Below are positions 5,653-16,154 of a DNA stretch of 26,549 nucleotides, in pieces. Every line of letters begins with the position of its first letter. The stretch's first letter is position 1. The position numbers and the translations under genes were made by a program. Source of the stretch: Ectocarpus siliculosus (lineage: Eukaryota; Sar; Phaeophyceae; Ectocarpales; Ectocarpaceae); NCBI GenBank assembly GCA_000310025.1, contig FN649755.1, forward strand, positions 2,188,181 through 2,214,729, in the 5' to 3' direction. The notes below the pieces were generated by a model. The model saw only the letters and a program-made list of their open reading frames with translations. It was not told where the DNA came from and ran no database searches.

Positions 5653-5680
5653 CCCTAACCCTAACCCTAACCCTAACCCT
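5653..5680. repeat. Interstitial telomere-type repeat (CCCTAA)
   Basis: Four full CCCTAA units plus CCCT, i.e. TTAGGG on the minus strand. It lies in the intergenic region between RLP24 and the ITPase gene. Confidence 0.9.
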
Positions 5681-6734: not shown

Positions 6735-6812
6735 CTAAGGGTGCTCAGGGAGAATAACCCTTTTGTATGACCACGGGTTGGCTGGCGTAAACAGCACAAA
6801 GTGCTGTGTGCG
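6735..6812 (-). CDS. Probable terminal exon of ITPase fusion
   Basis: A 13-T tract and CACTTCAAATCAG form a strong acceptor 125 bases after exon 8. The in-phase reading gives 25 codons ([14 protein letters not shown]...) and a TAG. No homology supports the peptide, so this rests on splice signals and phase only. Confidence 0.38.
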   Translation of the reverse strand, partial: RTQHFVLFTPANPWSYKRVILPEHP

Positions 6813-9800
6813 CTGATTTGAAGTGAAAAAAAAAAAAAGCGCACGAGACTGACACCTTGTCACTTTGTCAGCCGGTCGATGCAAACAATAAAGACACACA
6901 CGGGCCTGCCCCCCCCCCTCCTCCTCTTCTCACTCACCTCAAGAGCTCGTATCGCGGCACCCCTGGGCAAAGAAGCCTCTCTCTGGTCGGAGCCTTCCGC
7001 CATCTCGCCGACGGTTTCATCGGAGCCGTCCGGCAGGAAGGCCGGGTGCCACCCGCTGCTGGCGCTGGCATCGCCTCCTTCGAAACTGGAAACCCCTCTC
7101 GGCATCACGATCTTCCCCGCAACCTTTGCGTCGAATACCTGTTGGGGGTGTTGGACATATGCATAGCGCGGCAGGTAAAAAAAAAATCAGCGAGGCGCCA
7201 TCTGTACTATCAGGCAGTTTCACAAAGGCGCTCAACACCAGTATCTAGAGCTAAGTCTTGCAAACACAACAACAGCAAGATACACAACAAAAACAACATA
7301 AAATCACTATTATTTCTGATACAAACAGAAACAGCAATAAACTAAAATGCAACGTGGTTGTTGTCAAGAAAAAAACACAAACCAAAAGAATGCTTTGGGT
7401 GTGGTACGCCGCGCTGCGAAAAAAAAAAAAACCTTTGGCGTCGCGCCAGGTCCCGCCGAGAACGCCACCCGGTGTTCCGCGACCGCCGTCTTGTCCTCGA
7501 ACCCCTCCAAGAGGCTCAGCAGGCCCTCAGCCCCGAGCTTGCCCACGAAGGCTGCGATGTAGGGGCCCGGCAGCGACGCCAGGGCGTTGAACGCCAGGGA
7601 GGAGCTCTCCACGATGACGGCGCCCTTCGTCTAGAAATTGGAAGCGGGGGGGGGGGGGGTGAGCGCTGGTGCCGGGCTCTCTGGTCACAACCACGCCGTC
7701 CTTCACTCGAAGACGTTGTTCCAAGTGCGGGGAGGAACGAAATCATGGCTTGCACCCCTTAGCGGTTAGACCATTGACCACGCGTCCTCCTCGAGAGGAC
7801 GGAGCACTGTTCCCACACGACCGATCACCGATGGTCAATCGTTCCTTCCTACTAACTGTCTCAAAAACTCTTTTTCGCTACCCGATCTGTCCGAAGCGCG
7901 GCGTGTACTCATGGCCGTGCATGCCGTAGTCGTTTGGCCATTGACCTCGCATCCCTACAAAAGCCGAAACGGAGCACACCGGGTTCGCACCGGACCAGGC
8001 TCTCACAGTACCAAGCGCGAAGCGCCGTTAGGTATTCGGCGAATCGCATGGAGGGGGGGGGTGAGCGCGGGTGCCGGGCTCACGACAACAACCACGTCGT
8101 CTTAAGGTTAAAGTCGCAGTTCGAAGTGCGGGGAGGAGCGTAATCGTGCCTTGCATGCCTTAGCTGCTGGGCCATTGACCACGCGTCCTCCTCGAGAGGA
8201 CGGAGCATTGTTCCCACAGGACCCATCACCGATGGTTAGTGTCGTTCCTTCCTAATTTGCCAACCAAAGGTGGCTAAAAAATGCTTTTCCTTCCATGTCT
8301 GCTCGAAGCGTGTGTGTGCGGGATTGAATCCGAGGGCGGAGCTACTTAGACATAATCTTGCTCTCTTGTCTTCATATCTACACGTACAAACACCATCGCC
8401 CGATGATCTGGGGCAATCAGCGCGGGGGGGGTAGTGGCGAGGCCGGGGTTTGTCGTCGTCCAGCAGTCACCACAAACAACCATTGGTGCAAGGCATGTGT
8501 ACGGCGATCGATCCCTTGGTAGCGACCAACTACAGCAAGAACGCGGCCCGCTTTGCAAGGTGGATTGAGTCGTCCCCATTGGATGGAAACGATCGACAAA
8601 AACAAACACTGGCTCCTGCGACGACGACATCATCATCAACATCAACAACGATAACAACGACCACCACGTCGACGACAACGACATCAACAACAACAACAAC
8701 AACACCATCAGCGACAACAACAACAACAACAAACACCAACACCATCAGCGACAACAACAACAACCACAACCAGCAACAACAACAACAACACCAGCAACAA
8801 CAATCAACGCACCTTTGCCGCCGCAGTGTTGCACTTCTCCACGAGGGCCTCCGTGGTGTCCCCCTGCAGCTCCGCCAGCGCCACCGCCGACACGCCAACC
8901 CTCAAGGACGACGGCAGCCGTGACGCCATCTTCGTTACGCTCTGCAAAAAAACAAACACAGCCAGGTCATGCAAACAAAAAAAATCTAAACAAATTCTGT
9001 GGTACAGCGACAGCGGTGCTGGCTTCGACGTGAGGGAGGGTTTGACAAGCTGAAACAAAAACCTCTTACGCCGTAGTTTTTTTTTTCTCTCAAGCCGAAT
9101 TATAGTTTTCTCTCAAGCTCAACAATCCGCACGCAACAACCTGACAAGCCGAACTATGTGTCAAAAAAACGCGTTTTCTTCGACAAACCCGACAGAAAAG
9201 ACGACGCAAGCGTGTACCATATAAAAAAACACAAATTTTGAACACAAGGGGTATCTACACTTTTACACATGCGCATGCATGGTGCTGACAGCTGACAGGC
9301 ACAACGCGGCGAGCCCACACACCTCGCCTCGCGCTCCTCCGGTTTGAGTAAAGAGCGGCATGTGTACACATGCCAACAAGATACGAACGGCTCACGTCGC
9401 ACGTGTACACAAAGTGATCCTGCACTATTGGCATGCGCATGATGCTGACAGGCAAAAAAAACGTGGTACAACAGCAGTACCAAGTGTGCTGCTGCGCTTC
9501 TGCTATGTTTAGTACCGAGGGGGGGAGCCCACCCACCTCGCGCTCCTCCCCCGGTTGGGCAAAGAACGTGATCGCCGCGGCCTCGCCCTCACCCCCGTCC
9601 GCTGCCGCTGTTGTTGTCTCCCCCTCCCCTTCGCGGTCTTCTTCCCCACGCACGTCGCCTTCCGCGTGCATCTCGCCCACGATTTTGTCCGTGTTGGCCG
9701 CCACGTAACCCTGAAAGGAGTTCGTATCGAAATCAGGCGAGTGGGAGCGCGGGGGGGGTGTACTCATAGTCGTGCATGCCGTAGTCGTTAGACCATTGAC

Positions 9801-12800
9801 CTCGCATCCCTACAAAGCCGGGACGGAGCACGCCGGGTTCTCACCGGACCAGGCTCTCACATCACCAAGCGCGAAGCACCGTGAGGTATTTGGCGAGTCG
9901 CATGAAGGGTGAGCTGCATCCTGCTAAGGGTGTTCGGCATCTTGTGCTTACTTCCTTGCGTACGGATGACAGCTGCGTATGACTTAATTTATTTTCTGGT
10001 GCTTTCACTTCCAGAGACAGTTGTAAGCACTGTGTAACTGCCTCGAGGGTGCTTGACCATTTTAACACAACGTGGTGCGATCATCCCCCGTTGCGCGGAG
10101 TGAGGGTTCTCCACCCCGCACAACATGATCTACTCGACCACCATTATGGTTACCGCCAAAAAAAAAAACGACGTAGAAAAAAAAAAACGGTAACCTGGTT
10201 GCCGAGTTCACGAAGTGAATTGGCTTGTTTTACAACGTCGTTGCCAAGCGACGAAAACCCAATCCCGATGGTAAACACCGGGGGGGGTGGGTGGGAGCGG
10301 GGGGGGGGGTTACTCATGTTTTGCATGCCTTAGAGGTTAGGCGATTGACCTCGCATCCCTACAAAGCCGGGACGGAGCACGCCGGGTTCTCACCGGACAA
10401 GGCTCTCGCATCACCAAGCGCGAAGCACCGCGAGGTATTTGGCTGAGAGACCCTAAATAACTATACAACCACAACTTTGAAACATGTCCATCTCCACGAC
10501 GTCATGAGGATGAGAGAGAGAGAGAGAAAGAGAGAGAGACCGCCACGCGACAAATCTACCACATTTCCTTCCATCTTCGTAACTTGTGCTAGCGTTTCCA
10601 CCGCCCCCCCCCCCTTCCACCAGATCGCGTTGATTCCACACGCGAAACCGCTCCCAGAGAAACAGTAAAATACTGCGGGCACCACCAAGAGAGACGCCAA
10701 GACGCGACAACGCATCAGCAATATCAACAACCACCGCCACAACAACAACCACCACCACCACAACAACAACAACAACACCAGGACAGCCAAAGAAACACCG
10801 CAAAAAACAACGCATCGCCCGCTGCTGTGCCGATACTGCTGTAAATAGTCGTCGCATTGTAGTACAGTCGTGGTCCCGGCATATTTAGCGGTTCCCTGTT
10901 GAGCGGGATGCCCTGAATAGCGATCCCGCCATTTCGTGGCACGGCTGGCTGTACCTCGGGGGTTAAACTACAATATAACTGCCAATCCGGTTCAGCGGCG
11001 ATGCTCTCAATAGCGGTTTTAACATTTTGTGACACTATGGACCTCTAGACTGAACCGGGACCACGACTGTACCTTGAGCATTCCTAGCGCCCTCCCCCTG
11101 TGCGAGATGGCGTTCTTGTCCTCCTTGGCCATCTCGGCGTAAGTGACGTCACGCCCCTCCGGCTGGAAAATTGGGTCCCACCCGAAGTTCGTAGGCCCCC
11201 GCGGGGGCACAATGGATCCCGCCGTCCTGCCGTCGAAAATCTGCGCAACCAAAGAAAAAGAAAAAAAACAAAACATTTGAGATGGGGGGGGGGGGGATGT
11301 GCGACCCAAATGCTTCAATGCCAAACATTACAACACCGCCAACGTAACAGCAGTTATCATGAACCGACGACAACAACAACAACAGCAGTTGCAACAACAA
11401 CAGCAGCAGCTGCAACAACAACACCCAATGAAACGCCAAAGATGACAACCATGACGACGACCAAAGCAACAACAACAACACGGCAAACAACGACATTGGG
11501 TTACAAAGAAAGCAAGAAAACAAAAAAAACCCAGCAGTTACGCACAACAGCAGCAGTTGCAACAACAACAGCAGCAGCTGCAACAACAACAGCAAAAACA
11601 ACAACACCCAATGAAACGCCAAAGATGACAACCATGACGACGACCAAAGCAACAACAACAACACGGCAAACAACGACATTGGGTTACAAAGAAAGCAAGA
11701 AAAAAAAAAAAACAGCAGTTACGCACAAACCTTGACTTCCTTGCCAGGGCCGGCGCTGAAGGCGAAAACGCACTGGGCGTACGCCGTCTTGTCCTGGAAG
11801 CCCTCGAGGATGCCGTTAAGCCCGTCATGACCGGTGCCGTCGAGGAACCACTTGATGTATGGTCCGGGCAGACCGCCTAGAGCGTTGAAGCACAGCCCCG
11901 TGTCTTCCACCATGACCGGGCCTTGCACCTTCATTTACACGATGGGAATTACATGTGTAGGTATAATGGATCAACTAACCGTTCTTGTCACGTACGAAGA
12001 ATTGTGTAGGTAGATCAACGTGAGCTTTCTTGTCGACTTCTAGAACATTACATTACCACTTGTGGTTTCGCTACAATCCCAGGAAAAGCCAGGTTTCCTT
12101 TTCTGCGTGGACTGCTGACAGGCAAGCATTTCGATTTTTCGGGTTCTCACAGGCCGCTAATACACAACGGCAATAAAATATGTTTAGGTAGATCAACTAA
12201 CGTTTCTTGCCATTCACGAATATCTGGTAACATTTCTTCAACTTCATCAGGACGTTGACCAAACAAATTGAACGAAAAAAAAAAAAAAAATAGTGCCCGG
12301 CGTTGCCTCGATTGTCATATTGAGAGGATGCTAAATAGGCGAGGAAGGATTTAAAGGTTGCTGTCCTGTGTTCCGAGACCGATGTAGGGGAAAAAAAGCG
12401 GCCTACCAGATGACGACGAAGCTCCACAACTTTGGCGTCCCTAGCTTTAGACAGCGCTGCTGTCATACCCATCCGATCTTCAACATTTGGTCCCGCCGCT
12501 AACCACGGCACGGCGTGACATCGGTTTCCACGGAGTGTTCGACGATAGCGACAACACCAGAAAACAGCAACAACACCAACAACGACAGCGGCAACACCAA
12601 CAACAAGGGCAGCAACTAAAAGAAGCACACACAGGCAGGCACCCTTTTGCTCTTCCTCGTCTGCTTTGTACCGCTTCTCTCGTTAAATCCCGAGAACACC
12701 CTAAATAGCGTCTCCCGTGATACACCCCCACGAGGTCGGTCTCAGATGACGGACGGCCTTTGGAAGCGCTTTCTGGTTTTCAGCCGCACCGACTCGGACG

Positions 12801-15800
12801 TCTTTTCATTGGTTACTCAGCCGCCTTAGCACGGTCCACGCTACTGAAAAAAGAGCATACATGCACGGCTGATATATTTCCATTGGTCAGCTTTTTGCGC
12901 GGTCGATGTTTCGTTTCAAAACACTCACACAACACAAACAACACACCTGCTCCGCAGCGAGGCGGCACTTCTCCCTAGAGACGTCGTGCGGCTCCCCCTG
13001 CAGCTCCGGCAGGTCTACCTTCTTGTTGTCCAGGGGGAAGGGGAAGCTGCTGCCGAGGATCTGCTTCACCTGAGTGGGAGGGGAGAGAAAGGTCCAGAGA
13101 GGGGAATAAGAGGCAACGTTTGCGTGTGTGCACGTTCGTCCCATCTGTTCTGGCGCCAGCCTACACACCTTACCGTGCATGTGTGTGGCGCGTCAGCCGG
13201 GCTTACACAGGAGTTTGTTTTCCTCTTCATGGAAGAACCAGAGAAAAAGTCGCACGGCGCAGTGCTTCTTGGCAAAAATACTACGCCGAGGAAAAGATGG
13301 AACCATGGAAAGAGGAAGATAATAACAAATTGGGTCTCTCTGCCGTGGACAATACGGAAGACGACGTTGTATTTAGATGCAAACTGGAGATGCGAATGGA
13401 GTAGGGTAGAACGCGAAGTTGCATTCCAACTACTTATGAAACAAGAACGAGTCGAGTGCACGACAGGTTGTGGATGCGAGCGATGACGTGGAACTTTTTT
13501 CACGCCATGTGTCCATCGCCAACAACCCGAACCCGGAAATCGAACCAAAGAAAAGGACGTCGTTAAACTTCAGCATCCAGCACGTGGCACCGCCAACACA
13601 AACTTGGACACTCGTGCACACGCCTGGCCGGCGAAGGGCCTTGGGAATAGGAAATCCTGGCTCGAAGGCGCGCTTCATTGCATAGGTGGTACAAGTAGAT
13701 CTAAGGACTACTGGTACAGCTTATTTGCATGGATGATACGGGTGGCAAATTAAAAAAAAAAGATTGACCGTGCCGTTCGGAATGGATGTCAAGCTCGAAA
13801 GAAAGAGTGTGGTTCAAACTGTGGTTATATCTCGAACGGGTATTAGTCTCTTTGTGATTGCATGTGCAGAATTTTCTAACAAGCAGCCTTTCTCCACCAC
13901 CCAAAGGCCAAGTCTCTCTGGCGTGCATTGCGCTACTCAATACGGAGTACTCAATAGTGAGAGCAATCCGCACGCAACAACCAACCGTCATGCCTAAAAA
14001 CAGAAAATAAAAAACAGAAAGAACAACCGCCATGGATAGACCTGCACTACCTGGGGTGTGTGTGGAAGGAATAACTCCTGTCGGTGACCTGCGTTGTCGA
14101 CAACCCGATCCAGTCTGGACGTCGATTTTTCCGCTCATGAATTCTCCTGAACGTGCCAACAGGAATCATTATTGTGCACAGGAGAACGACACCCCGGTTT
14201 TTTCGGGGGGTTTTCTCCCCAGTCAACCTTCCCTCTATATGGGGCTTACATGAAAAACATCGAGAGAAAAAAAAAAAGCACGAACGAACTGACGAAATGC
14301 AGAGCTCGTTCATGTATGTTATCGGGCGAAATGGTGCCGATGAACGACTTTTTCAAGCCAAGAAAGAAGAGTGCCGTAAACTGTGGTCCCTCTATATTGA
14401 AGGCTGCACGCATAGTGCCCAAGGGATTGGCTCGCGTAGTACCGGGCATACGGCACACCGCAAATCCAAGAGCGCGAGAAAATTGAGTTACAGTTAAATT
14501 CCATCCGTGATACAACTCGATCACACAGGCCTTTCTGAAGGGCGAACGGCCATATTTATGCGGAATTATTCAGGGACCACACCCGTATTCCAACCAGCGG
14601 AAATGCGGCCTAACCGGTTCCTGACAGTCTCGTGAACCCGACGAATCGTGTAGCTCGGGCGGAATCGAGGACGGTGTCCAGAAACCGAAGATATATGACA
14701 CTCATCAGATCAGCCGGAGTAGCTCAGTCGGTAGAGCGCAAGACTCTTAATCTTGTGGTCGAGGGTTCGAGCCCCTCCTTCGGTGCTTTTTTTCCTCCTC
14801 ACACTTGCACAATATTTATTTTTAGCCCGGTCGGGCTTAAATCGCGCCCTGCGGGCCGCTGACGGCGAAGCGGCGGAATCAAGTCTACTCTCAAAATCGA
14901 CACGATGACGTCGCGAGCACGGCTGGCGCCGCAGAGGGCACCGTTCTCTCAACAAGACGCCGCCACCAAGGGCTCCGGGCGCCGAGCGCCGGACAAAGCT
15001 GCCCGCGCCGTGGAAACCGCGCCGATTCATGTGTTCGCGCCTGCATCTGCTGCACCCGAGACTGTCGATAAACGCTGCTGTGATTGGACGGCACTGCTGT
15101 CGATTGGTGTATTGTTGGGAGCGCTTGAAGTTACAACAGAACTCGGAATTCGGAACTACCCAGCGAAACAAGCAAACCTTTGTGACGAAATGGTACAAAG
15201 CACTTGCTTCACCCTCGTGTGGTGGGGACTGCTGTGTAACGCTGCTACCTTGCAATTATCACAGGAAGGCAGACTTTCCTGGGGAAAGTCCTCCATCTGC
15301 ACCTGAAGGAGGTCCACCTGCCTCTTTCTGATATTTTGCAAGGGGGGCACAACATGCGGATCGGATTTCCGGCGTCCATGACGTCGATGCTTGATGCAGC
15401 ATCAGGAACCAACGTCCGGGACGTCATGGGCGCAGGCAAACCGAACCGCACGTTCTGCCGCCCTTCCGAAATATCAGGAGAGGGCGGGCCGACCTCCTCG
15501 AGGAACATTCTCCGGGTTGCATGCTACTTTTCTCCCTCGGAGCACCGCGTGCATGCCTTACTACCAACCCTCAAGAGTACCGCGTTTGTCGAACACAGAG
15601 GAGGGCGTAAGAAACAGCGATACTTGTTATTTTCTTCGTTGTTTTCGCCTCCCGGCGTTATTTATTTACTTCAATTATTATCGCGGTCACGGAGATGGCG
15701 GGCCTTCACCATGTTTCTCGGCCGACCACTCAAAGCACTAACCGAACGAAATTAACCAGAAGGGAAGCGAGCAACACTGTACAAAACAAGGAAAACAGAC

Positions 15801-16154
15801 ACAAAATAGAGACTGTAGGTAAGAAATACGTCGTCGAGCTTGTGTGTGTTTCTCCTTGCGGGGTGCGACCAAGAAAAGTAAATGATACAAAAGCGAATGG
15901 GCCGAGAACGAAAAAACCGCAGAAAAAAACAAAAAACACGCTTGCGGTACTAATTCATGGTGCACGCTGAGGGCTTCGATCCGGAAAAAAACAACATGAC
16001 GTACAAAGAACGCGATGGTACTCATCACGCAACATAGGCATACCTCCTTCAGTTTGTTGGCATTGCCGGTGACGAATGTGACTGGTTTCGCCTCCAGTGG
16101 CCGGCCCCGCTTGCCGGCCCCGCCGCCGCTGCCACCGCGCGTTGAGCAGCCCAG
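6735..16154 (-). CDS. Tandem ITPase (Ham1) fusion: active N-half, degenerate C-half, 9 exons
   Basis: Exons in order: 16154-16044, 13069-12947, 11928-11731, 11240-11073, 9710-9537, 8941-8813, 7630-7433, 7138-6938 and probably 6812-6735. All junctions are phase 0, giving 459 codons plus an unresolved N-terminus. Domain 1 (residues about 24-216) has TFVTGNANK (26-34), the LPELQGEP loop, VEDTG (85-89), [22 protein letters not shown] (163-169) and [11 protein letters not shown] (186-196), the complete motif set of inosine/xanthosine triphosphate pyrophosphatases, which remove deaminated purine nucleotides from the pool. An acidic linker (about 217-246) leads to domain 2 (247-434), which keeps [15 protein letters not shown] and LEGFEDKTA but reads FAQPG for TGN, VESSS for VEDTG, SGWHPAF for FGWDPIF and REASLPR for KNAISHR. 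The second half is therefore probably non-catalytic, perhaps a dimerisation or regulatory half; that role is inference. The start codon was not found. Confidence 0.88.
6938..7138 (-). CDS. ITPase fusion exon 8 (domain 2 equivalent of exon 4)
   Basis: Sixty-seven codons from [15 protein letters not shown] to RGAAIRALE. An extra Gly/Ala/Ser-rich stretch precedes [12 protein letters not shown] (FGWD.F.P.G in active enzymes). SLPR replaces SHR, so the conserved His is Pro. The acceptor is CACCCCCAACAG and the donor GAG|GTGAGTG. Confidence 0.88.
7433..7630 (-). CDS. ITPase fusion exon 7 (domain 2 equivalent of exon 3)
   Basis: Sixty-six codons, exactly the length of exon 3: [40 protein letters not shown], ending PGATPK. 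The metal-ligand Asp of VEDT is Ser here. The acceptor is CCAATTTCTAG next to a poly-C run; the donor is AAG|GTTTTT. Confidence 0.9.
7641..7902 (+). mobile_element. tRNA-head SINE-like repeat, type B copy 1
   Basis: A poly-G run then GTGAGCGCTGGTGCCGGGCTC, then CCTTAGCGGTTAGACCATTGACC, which resembles a tRNA A box/D arm, and CGCGTCCTCCTCGAGAGGACGG, a small hairpin. It is about as long as the copy at 8050-8340 and similar along its length. It lies in ITPase intron 6, with its poly-G end 10-15 bases from the exon 7 acceptor. Confidence 0.6.
7903..8049 (+). mobile_element. tRNA-head SINE-like repeat, type A copy 1
   Basis: Begins GTGTACTCATGGCCGTGCAT, with a tRNA-like A-box region (GCCGTAGTCGTTTGGCCATTGACC) and a B-box-like GGGTTCGCACCGGACC about 55 bases later. 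It shares most of its length with copies at 9758 and 10310. It is sandwiched between the two type B copies. Confidence 0.6.
8050..8340 (+). mobile_element. tRNA-head SINE-like repeat, type B copy 2
   Basis: Starts with a G-run and GTGAGCGCGGGTGCCGGGCTC and repeats the blocks of copy 1 (TTCGAAGTGCGGGGAGGA, GACCACGCGTCCTCC, ATCACCGATGGT). It ends near GGGATTGAATCC, a tRNA T-arm-like string. Confidence 0.6.
8622..8803. repeat. CAA/CGA/CCA triplet microsatellite
   Basis: About 180 bases of imperfect ACAACA, CGACGA and CACCA triplets immediately inside ITPase intron 6, next to exon 6. They create long spurious poly-Thr/poly-Val frames. Confidence 0.9.
8813..8941 (-). CDS. ITPase fusion exon 6 (domain 2 equivalent of exon 2)
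   Basis: Forty-three codons from [12 protein letters not shown] through [18 protein letters not shown] to AAAK, aligned with exon 2 (ELQGEP...EKC...AAEQ). The acceptor is GTTTTTTTGCAG and the donor AAG|GTGCGT. Confidence 0.85.
9537..9710 (-). CDS. ITPase fusion exon 5 (linker joining the two domains)
   Basis: Fifty-eight codons. [14 protein letters not shown] prolongs the C-terminal helix of domain 1. An acidic low-complexity linker rich in Glu, Gly, Thr and Ala follows, then [15 protein letters not shown], which aligns with beta1/P-loop of domain 2. The acceptor is CTCCTTTCAG and the donor GAG|GTGGGT. One exon containing the end of one domain and the start of the next is the direct evidence for fusion. 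Confidence 0.82.
9758..9907 (+). mobile_element. tRNA-head SINE-like repeat, type A copy 2
   Basis: GTGTACTCATAGTCGTGCAT... with GTAGTCGTTAGACCATTGACC, GGGTTCTCACCGGACCAGGC and a shared end TATTTGGCGAGTCGCATG. It is preceded by a G-run at 9751-9757. It lies in ITPase intron 4, about 45 bases from the exon 5 acceptor. Confidence 0.62.
10310..10445 (+). mobile_element. tRNA-head SINE-like repeat, type A copy 3
   Basis: Follows a 10-base G-run and contains GCCTTAGAGGTTAGGCGATTGACC, CATCCCTACAAAGCCGGGACG and AAGCGCGAAGCACCGCGAGG, nearly identical to the copy at 9758. It lies in the same ITPase intron 4. Confidence 0.62.
10509..10538. repeat. (GA)n microsatellite
   Basis: Imperfect GAGA run in ITPase intron 4, one AA interruption. 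Confidence 0.9.
10863..11071 (+). mobile_element. MITE with pogo/Tc1-like ends, copy 1
   Basis: A 205-bp element (10865-11069) flanked on both sides by TA. The left end CAGTCGTGGTCCCGG is an exact inverted repeat of the right end. It has no coding capacity. CAGT termini with TA duplication are typical of Tc1/mariner/pogo non-autonomous elements; the family name is inference. Its right end abuts the 5' splice site of ITPase exon 4. Confidence 0.85.
11073..11240 (-). CDS. ITPase fusion exon 4 (FGWD and SHR motifs)
   Basis: Fifty-six codons, [10 protein letters not shown] through [20 protein letters not shown] to [13 protein letters not shown]. The acceptor is CTTTGGTTGCGCAG. The donor is AAG|GTACAG, whose TA is the target-site duplication of a MITE that fills 10865-11069. 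No stop follows the domain, so the message continues into exon 5. Confidence 0.93.
11366..11726. repeat. Tandem duplication, period 183, in ITPase intron 3
   Basis: Two adjacent copies share CCCAATGAAACGCCAAAGATG (11424 and 11607), CAACGACATTGGGTTACAAA and CAGCAGTTACGCACAA. The units are rich in CAA and CAG triplets. They fill most of the 490-base intron. Confidence 0.85.
11731..11928 (-). CDS. ITPase fusion exon 3 (metal/substrate core)
   Basis: Sixty-six codons starting [17 protein letters not shown] and ending GPGKEVK. It holds the VEDT metal-binding pair, the [10 protein letters not shown] motif and GFQDKTAY. The acceptor (AAATGAAG) is weak, without a clear pyrimidine tract; the donor is AAG|GTTTGT. 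Confidence 0.93.
12550..12616. repeat. CAA/CAG triplet microsatellite
   Basis: Imperfect CAA triplets with CAG and CCA variants in ITPase intron 2. Confidence 0.85.
12947..13069 (-). CDS. ITPase fusion exon 2
   Basis: Forty-one codons from [11 protein letters not shown] through [18 protein letters not shown] to LAAEQ. They match the human VVQILG..IDLPEYQGEPDEIS..KC segment. The acceptor is CTCCCACTCAG and the donor CAG|GTGTGT. Confidence 0.93.
14713..14785 (+). tRNA. trnK(CTT): tRNA-Lys (anticodon CTT)
   Basis: A 73-base cloverleaf. The acceptor stem GCCGGAG pairs with CTTCGGT (two G-T pairs), the D arm is GCTC..GAGC and the anticodon stem CAAGA/TCTTG encloses the loop CTCTTAA. The T arm is GAGGG-TTCGAGC-CCCTC, and the discriminator base G73 is usual for eukaryotic tRNA-Lys. 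No intron and no encoded CCA. Internal A and B boxes fit Pol III transcription. It lies inside intron 1 of the ITPase gene, on the opposite strand. Confidence 0.95.
14787..14793 (+). terminator. Pol III T-run after tRNA-Lys
   Basis: Seven consecutive T residues begin two bases after the discriminator base, the usual RNA polymerase III stop. Confidence 0.8.
15307..15498. mobile_element. Foldback element / long imperfect hairpin
   Basis: Arms 15307-15385 and 15420-15498 are imperfect inverted copies (~79 bases each). GGAGGTC..CTGATATTT..GCGGATCGG..CCATGACGTC on the left is answered by the reverse complement on the right. The ~34-base loop contains the palindrome TGATGCAGCATCA. It is either a foldback MITE or a long hairpin transcript source, and lies in ITPase intron 1. 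Confidence 0.75.
16044..16154 (-). CDS. ITPase fusion exon 1 (phosphate-loop)
   Basis: Thirty-seven codons: a Gly-rich stretch, then [17 protein letters not shown], the beta1/P-loop start of Ham1 proteins. The donor is GAG|GTATGC at 16043. The start is set by the acceptor ACTTCCAG; the frame upstream reaches a TAA without an ATG, so the initiator is in a further upstream exon. A candidate ATG followed by the donor GTAGGT near 16283-16295 does not match in phase. Confidence 0.8.

Follow-up and report, generated by a model that had tools for sequence, protein, structure and literature searches.

The best-described relatives of the gene analysed here are human ITPA and the other members of the Ham1 family (PF01725, TIGR00042), of which both halves of the predicted product are homologues. 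The human enzyme is a homodimer of 194-residue chains with one domain per chain (excerpts of PMC5075207), and its catalytic site lies close to the interface (excerpts of PMC5075207 and PMC9152572); here, in contrast, two domains stand in one predicted chain, and one of the two is without catalytic residues. Another house-cleaning nucleotide pyrophosphatase, the monomeric dUTPase of herpesviruses, is about twice the size of its oligomeric relatives and reportedly evolved through gene duplication (excerpts of PMC8961515). It belongs to a different enzyme family from ITPase and, according to the same excerpts, has one site, with the motif order changed along the chain, whereas here domain 1 alone has the complete motif set, an observation that counts against one active site composed of motifs from both halves. 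The pairing of an active copy with a catalytically dead paralogue is described for the trypanosome AdoMetDC-prozyme and for the kinase and pseudokinase of JAK (excerpts of PMC10211241 and PMC6221367), and in JAK, as in the present gene, both copies are found in one chain (PMC10211241, in part). These systems have other folds; in them the dead copy is reported to act as a regulator, whereas for the present gene this is presumed.

The window, meaning the whole stretch of DNA that was analysed, comprises 26,549 nucleotides of the Ectocarpus siliculosus genome (FN649755.1, positions 2188181-2214729), and the genome searches covered the 189 Mb assembly of 492 contigs. On the minus strand of the window, eight exons extending from 16154 to 6938 and a short tentative ninth exon at 6759-6745 were identified. 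In window coordinates, they are as follows.

Exon 1, 16154-16044, minus strand: N-terminal extension and strand beta1 with the TGNANK motif of domain 1
Exon 2, 13069-12947, minus strand: LPELQGE (E44) region of domain 1
Exon 3, 11928-11731, minus strand: VEDTGL...LPGPYIKWF of domain 1; the acceptor is pyrimidine-poor
Exon 4, 11240-11073, minus strand: NFGWDP...KNAISHR of domain 1, ending in an open phase-0 donor
Exon 5, 9710-9537, minus strand: end of domain 1 (GYV...), acidic and glycine-rich linker of about 38 residues, and beta1 of domain 2 (ITFFAQPG)
Exon 6, 8941-8813, minus strand: ALAELQGD region of domain 2, in which E44 is retained
Exon 7, 7630-7433, minus strand: VESSSL...LPGPYIAAF of domain 2, without D72 and T73; its length equals that of exon 3
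Exon 8, 7138-6938, minus strand: remainder of domain 2, ending in REASLPR, with nine residues inserted into the specificity loop and without D152, K172, S176 and H177
Exon 9 (tentative), 6759-6745, minus strand: GYSP and stop, at the same intron position as between exons 4 and 5; another acceptor is possible

Joined in one frame, with the tentative ninth exon included, these exons give 438 codons with two Ham1p_like domains; if they join as modelled, the product of 438 residues compares with an ITPase norm of a single domain of about 190-200 residues. Exons 1 to 8 have AG acceptors and GT donors throughout, the length of every one of them is divisible by three, and all introns of the predicted gene are in phase 0, so that the splice junctions of the model are all in phase. 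The GC content is 0.63-0.70 in exons 1 to 8 versus 0.40-0.55 in the introns. A scan of 101 bases for promoter and terminator elements found nothing, which has no bearing on the gene model. The first-pass annotation had described a single gene at 6735-16154, and of this the frame joined across the exons stands, while both of its ends have to be revised. No in-frame ATG is present in exon 1 downstream of its acceptor, and the start codon must lie further upstream, beyond 16154, where a scan gave 12 candidate ATG exons for the 5' end, all unproved. As for the 3' end at 6735, phase gives it no support, and a phase-0 acceptor yields the GYSP-stop exon listed above. Within intron 1, a tRNA-Lys gene (anticodon CTT) is located at 14713-14786 on the plus strand, opposite to the ITPase gene.

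The argument for one product comes mainly from exon 5, which reads on without a stop codon from the end of domain 1, across the linker, to the first strand of domain 2. Together with the phase-0 donor of exon 4, this bears out the earlier claim of a single open frame through both halves, and since exon 5 thereby links the two domains in frame, one product is favoured and we infer a fused transcript. Two tandem genes or two isoforms, in which the halves would be separate proteins and domain 2 would start independently, a short distance ahead of exon 5, are still to be considered, because an in-frame ATG is located at 9767-9765 (minus strand), 57 bases upstream of the acceptor of exon 5, and its frame is open through exon 5; moreover, retention of intron 4 would terminate domain 1 after 17 further codons and give a domain-1-only end. 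This arrangement nevertheless appears improbable to us: the GYV directly after the exon 5 acceptor follows the same intron position as GYSP and fits the C-terminal residues of the family, and a protein search of the assembly that used domain 1 as the query turned up no alternative terminal exon for this domain.

The membership of both halves in the Ham1 family was examined by profile searches and by comparison with human ITPA. A search against PF01725, which had been proposed as a check, recognised Ham1p_like sequence twice in the joined product (252.5 bits, hmmscan), and domain 2 by itself, taken with exon 5, scores 73.1 bits against a cut-off of 22.5 (E 3.5e-20) and is thus not a chance match; exon 8 alone remains below this cut-off with 19.8 bits, and exon 6 alone gives no match to the Ham1p_like profile. 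With TIGR00042, domain 2 scores 60.2 bits versus an equivalog cut-off of 145. Human ITPA (2car) is matched by domain 1 with an E value of 4.7e-72 and by domain 2 with an E value of 8.1e-28, and the two domains are 47% identical to each other over 159 residues. Domain 1 aligns with residues 5-191 of the 2car chain, key residues included, and carries the catalytic and recognition set T14, K19, E44, D72, F149, D152, K172 and SHR (residue numbers are those of human ITPA, i.e. the 2car chain index minus 2). Domain 1 had been described as active, with the motifs TGN, VEDT, FGWD and SHR, all of which are present, and judged by its sequence it looks like a complete eukaryotic ITPase. For E22, F149, R178 and the SHR signature, the roles are given in excerpts of PMC10901923 and PMC5075207, for E44 and D72 in excerpts of PMC9016069, and for D72 also in an excerpt of PMC9152572; those of the other residues are general background on this family.

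To define what domain 2 has lost and kept, we used as conserved columns those with at least 90% agreement in 22 sequences, namely domain 1 and 21 prokaryotic relatives, which gave 45 columns. Domain 2 has the majority residue in 29 of them and differs in 16, in one of which domain 1 is also off the majority. The losses comprise T14, N18, K19, E22, D72, T73, G82, K89, G134, N148, D152, I154, K172, N173 and S176, and H177 is replaced by P. The equivalents of T14 to E22 hinge on a shift of one alignment column, but the ten-residue stretch concerned is free of T, N and K in either placing. Retained are, among others, E44, Q46, K56, E71, the PGP motif, F149, W151 and R178, and the insert of nine residues in the specificity loop lies between the equivalents of F149 and G150. 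The motifs AQP, VESS, SGWH and LPR previously read in domain 2 were all recovered, as was the LPGPYI common to both halves, and its description as a true but catalytically degenerate Ham1 homologue agrees with the profile search and the residue comparison. On account of the lost conserved catalytic residues, domain 2 is a putative pseudoenzyme, and we infer that it is inactive.

The exon structure is informative as to the origin of domain 2. When the two halves are aligned, three of four exon ends occupy identical columns; the first end occupies columns 15 and 14, respectively, one column apart and four columns before an alignment gap. Because the intron positions coincide, the second half is most simply a duplicate made once these introns existed, which points to an internal duplication as the probable source of domain 2. 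In a phylogenetic tree, domain 1, domain 2 and human ITPA are grouped with a support of 92/93, which is below the tool's mark of 95, and the tree does not distinguish a duplication before the split from animals from one after it. The branch of domain 2 is 1.59 long versus 0.14 for domain 1, i.e. about eleven times longer, and its placement is unsure because of this length and of an odd composition. The introns at matching positions (1 and 5, 2 and 6, 3 and 7) show no similarity except for one match of 19 bases between introns 1 and 5. Similarity between introns 4 and 6 was also considered as a trace of the duplication and was rejected, since the matches are dispersed repeats. Copies of this repeat, about 120-150 bases long and 85-90% alike, are located at 9758-9909 and 10322-10443 (intron 4) and at 7903-8055 (intron 6); judged by eye, they are tRNA-derived in appearance.

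The long branch of domain 2 and its raised dN/dS could also be those of a functionless decaying duplicate, which would be read through as its frame happens to be open. Between the halves, dN/dS is 0.46 (NG86) or 0.55 (LWL85) with a dS of about 1.1-1.2, which is near saturation; by rough inference the ratio of domain 2 itself may be near 0.8, and its constraint would therefore be partial. Neutral evolution was simulated starting from the domain 1 codons, with 1500 runs for each of two mutation models. The absence of stop codons in domain 2 has a P of 0.0125 under neutrality, or 0.0895 at half the divergence, and of 0.0173 or 0.1567 in the neutral runs under the two mutation models; with GC-biased mutation, the open frame survives in 16% of the runs. 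By itself, the lack of stop codons is thus weak evidence of constraint, and GC3 proved informative in the simulations under unbiased mutation only. What speaks against decay is the pattern of the retained residues. Domain 2 is identical to domain 1 in 30 of the 45 conserved columns versus 47 of the 126 other columns (p 0.0009, Fisher), and within the conserved columns nonpolar residues were kept in 23 of 26 cases versus 6 of 18 for polar ones (p 0.0003, Fisher). When the column in which domain 1 itself departs is left out, the retention amounts to 29/44 conserved versus 47/126 variable columns, which was attained in none of the 1500 neutral runs of each model, and the excess of nonpolar retention has a P of 0.002 and 0.0027 under the two models. 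In addition, no splice junction of the model has gone out of phase. Domain 2 is not simply decaying, and we regard the functionless duplicate as very improbable; from the residues kept and lost, it looks as though the fold is under constraint and the catalytic surface is not.

Copy number and occurrence in other genomes were analyzed by profile and protein searches. The family profile gave three matches in the 189 Mb assembly, all of them exons of the tandem ITPase gene, and protein searches gave six and seven matches, just one of which, with an E value of 0.39, lies outside the gene. These searches thus found no other Ham1 gene in the assembly, and no match to the alternative ITP-cleaning family PF01931 was obtained there, with the proviso for both results that weak exons may hide behind introns. 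Searches of viral contigs with domain 1 and with domain 2 as the query gave no relatives. Searches of prokaryote species genomes with domain 1 gave the 21 relatives that served as outgroups; all 21 are in open frames of 178-228 codons and are therefore single-domain proteins. Of 99 sampled genomes from one bacterial phylum, 97 gave a single Ham1 match. Another gave two matches, on different contigs, and the last gave three, two of which abut as halves of one domain. The open frames that contain single matches reach 451 codons. Two full Ham1 domains side by side were found in none of the 99 genomes, a count that might overlook a second domain if it is strongly degenerate. Among the full-text literature matches listed for tandem, fused or brown-algal ITPases, no title or beginning of an abstract describes a tandem ITPase, and a word search in the main text of selected literature on gene fusions, covered in part, gave no mention of Ham1 or ITPase. 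The earlier statement that this layout is undescribed is in line with the matches listed and the bacterial sample; it may already occur unremarked in eukaryotic protein databases.

Taken as a whole, we consider it rather probable, though well short of certain, that the gene encodes a single-chain tandem ITPase in which domain 2, an internal duplicate, most likely serves as a structural partner of domain 1. Domain 1, with the complete residues of the family, would use Mg2+ to cleave (d)ITP and XTP into the monophosphate and pyrophosphate. Domain 2 would have arisen by internal duplication of the whole domain, introns included; residues that serve in binding triphosphate and metal have since gone from it, while constraint on the fold has persisted. 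The simplest role for a tethered copy that is catalytically dead but retains its fold would be that of a built-in partner for domain 1, standing in for the second protomer in the usual ITPase homodimer, presumably through intramolecular pairing. Such a role is plausible because the catalytic site of the human homodimer is near the interface; otherwise, domain 2 might stabilise or regulate domain 1.

It is also conceivable, although we think it unlikely, that domain 1 homodimerises between chains and that domain 2, rather than acting as the dimer partner, is an appended pseudo-domain, e.g. a nucleotide sensor or a protein-binding module. The linker of about 38 residues would allow independent movement, and part of the base pocket is kept in domain 2 (equivalents of E44, E71, F149, W151 and R178); triphosphate binding by domain 2 looks unlikely, however, because K19, D72, D152 and K172 are changed and because of the insert between F149 and G150. 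The reading with domain 2 as a built-in partner can be extended, slightly more doubtfully still, to the proposal that in a brown-algal lineage the ITPase homodimer was replaced by one chain, the only Ham1 enzyme of the cell, in which the noncatalytic domain derived from the second protomer keeps those base-pocket residues and regulates the sole site, i.e. a built-in allosteric control. A naturally occurring fusion to a dead copy would be a direct test of the second protomer's contribution to ITPase activity, and it would bring a housekeeping pyrophosphatase into the known enzyme-pseudoenzyme fusions, an advance that is modest unless regulation by domain 2 is demonstrated.

Two minor observations concern the surroundings of the gene and the assembly. 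The EsV-1-7 repeat family is expanded in brown algae, and its domain (PF19114) gave 150 scored matches among 880 candidates in the assembly and none in any of the 14 prokaryotic control genomes. Downstream of the ITPase gene, at 5653-5676, the window contains a short telomere-type run of CCCTAA units.
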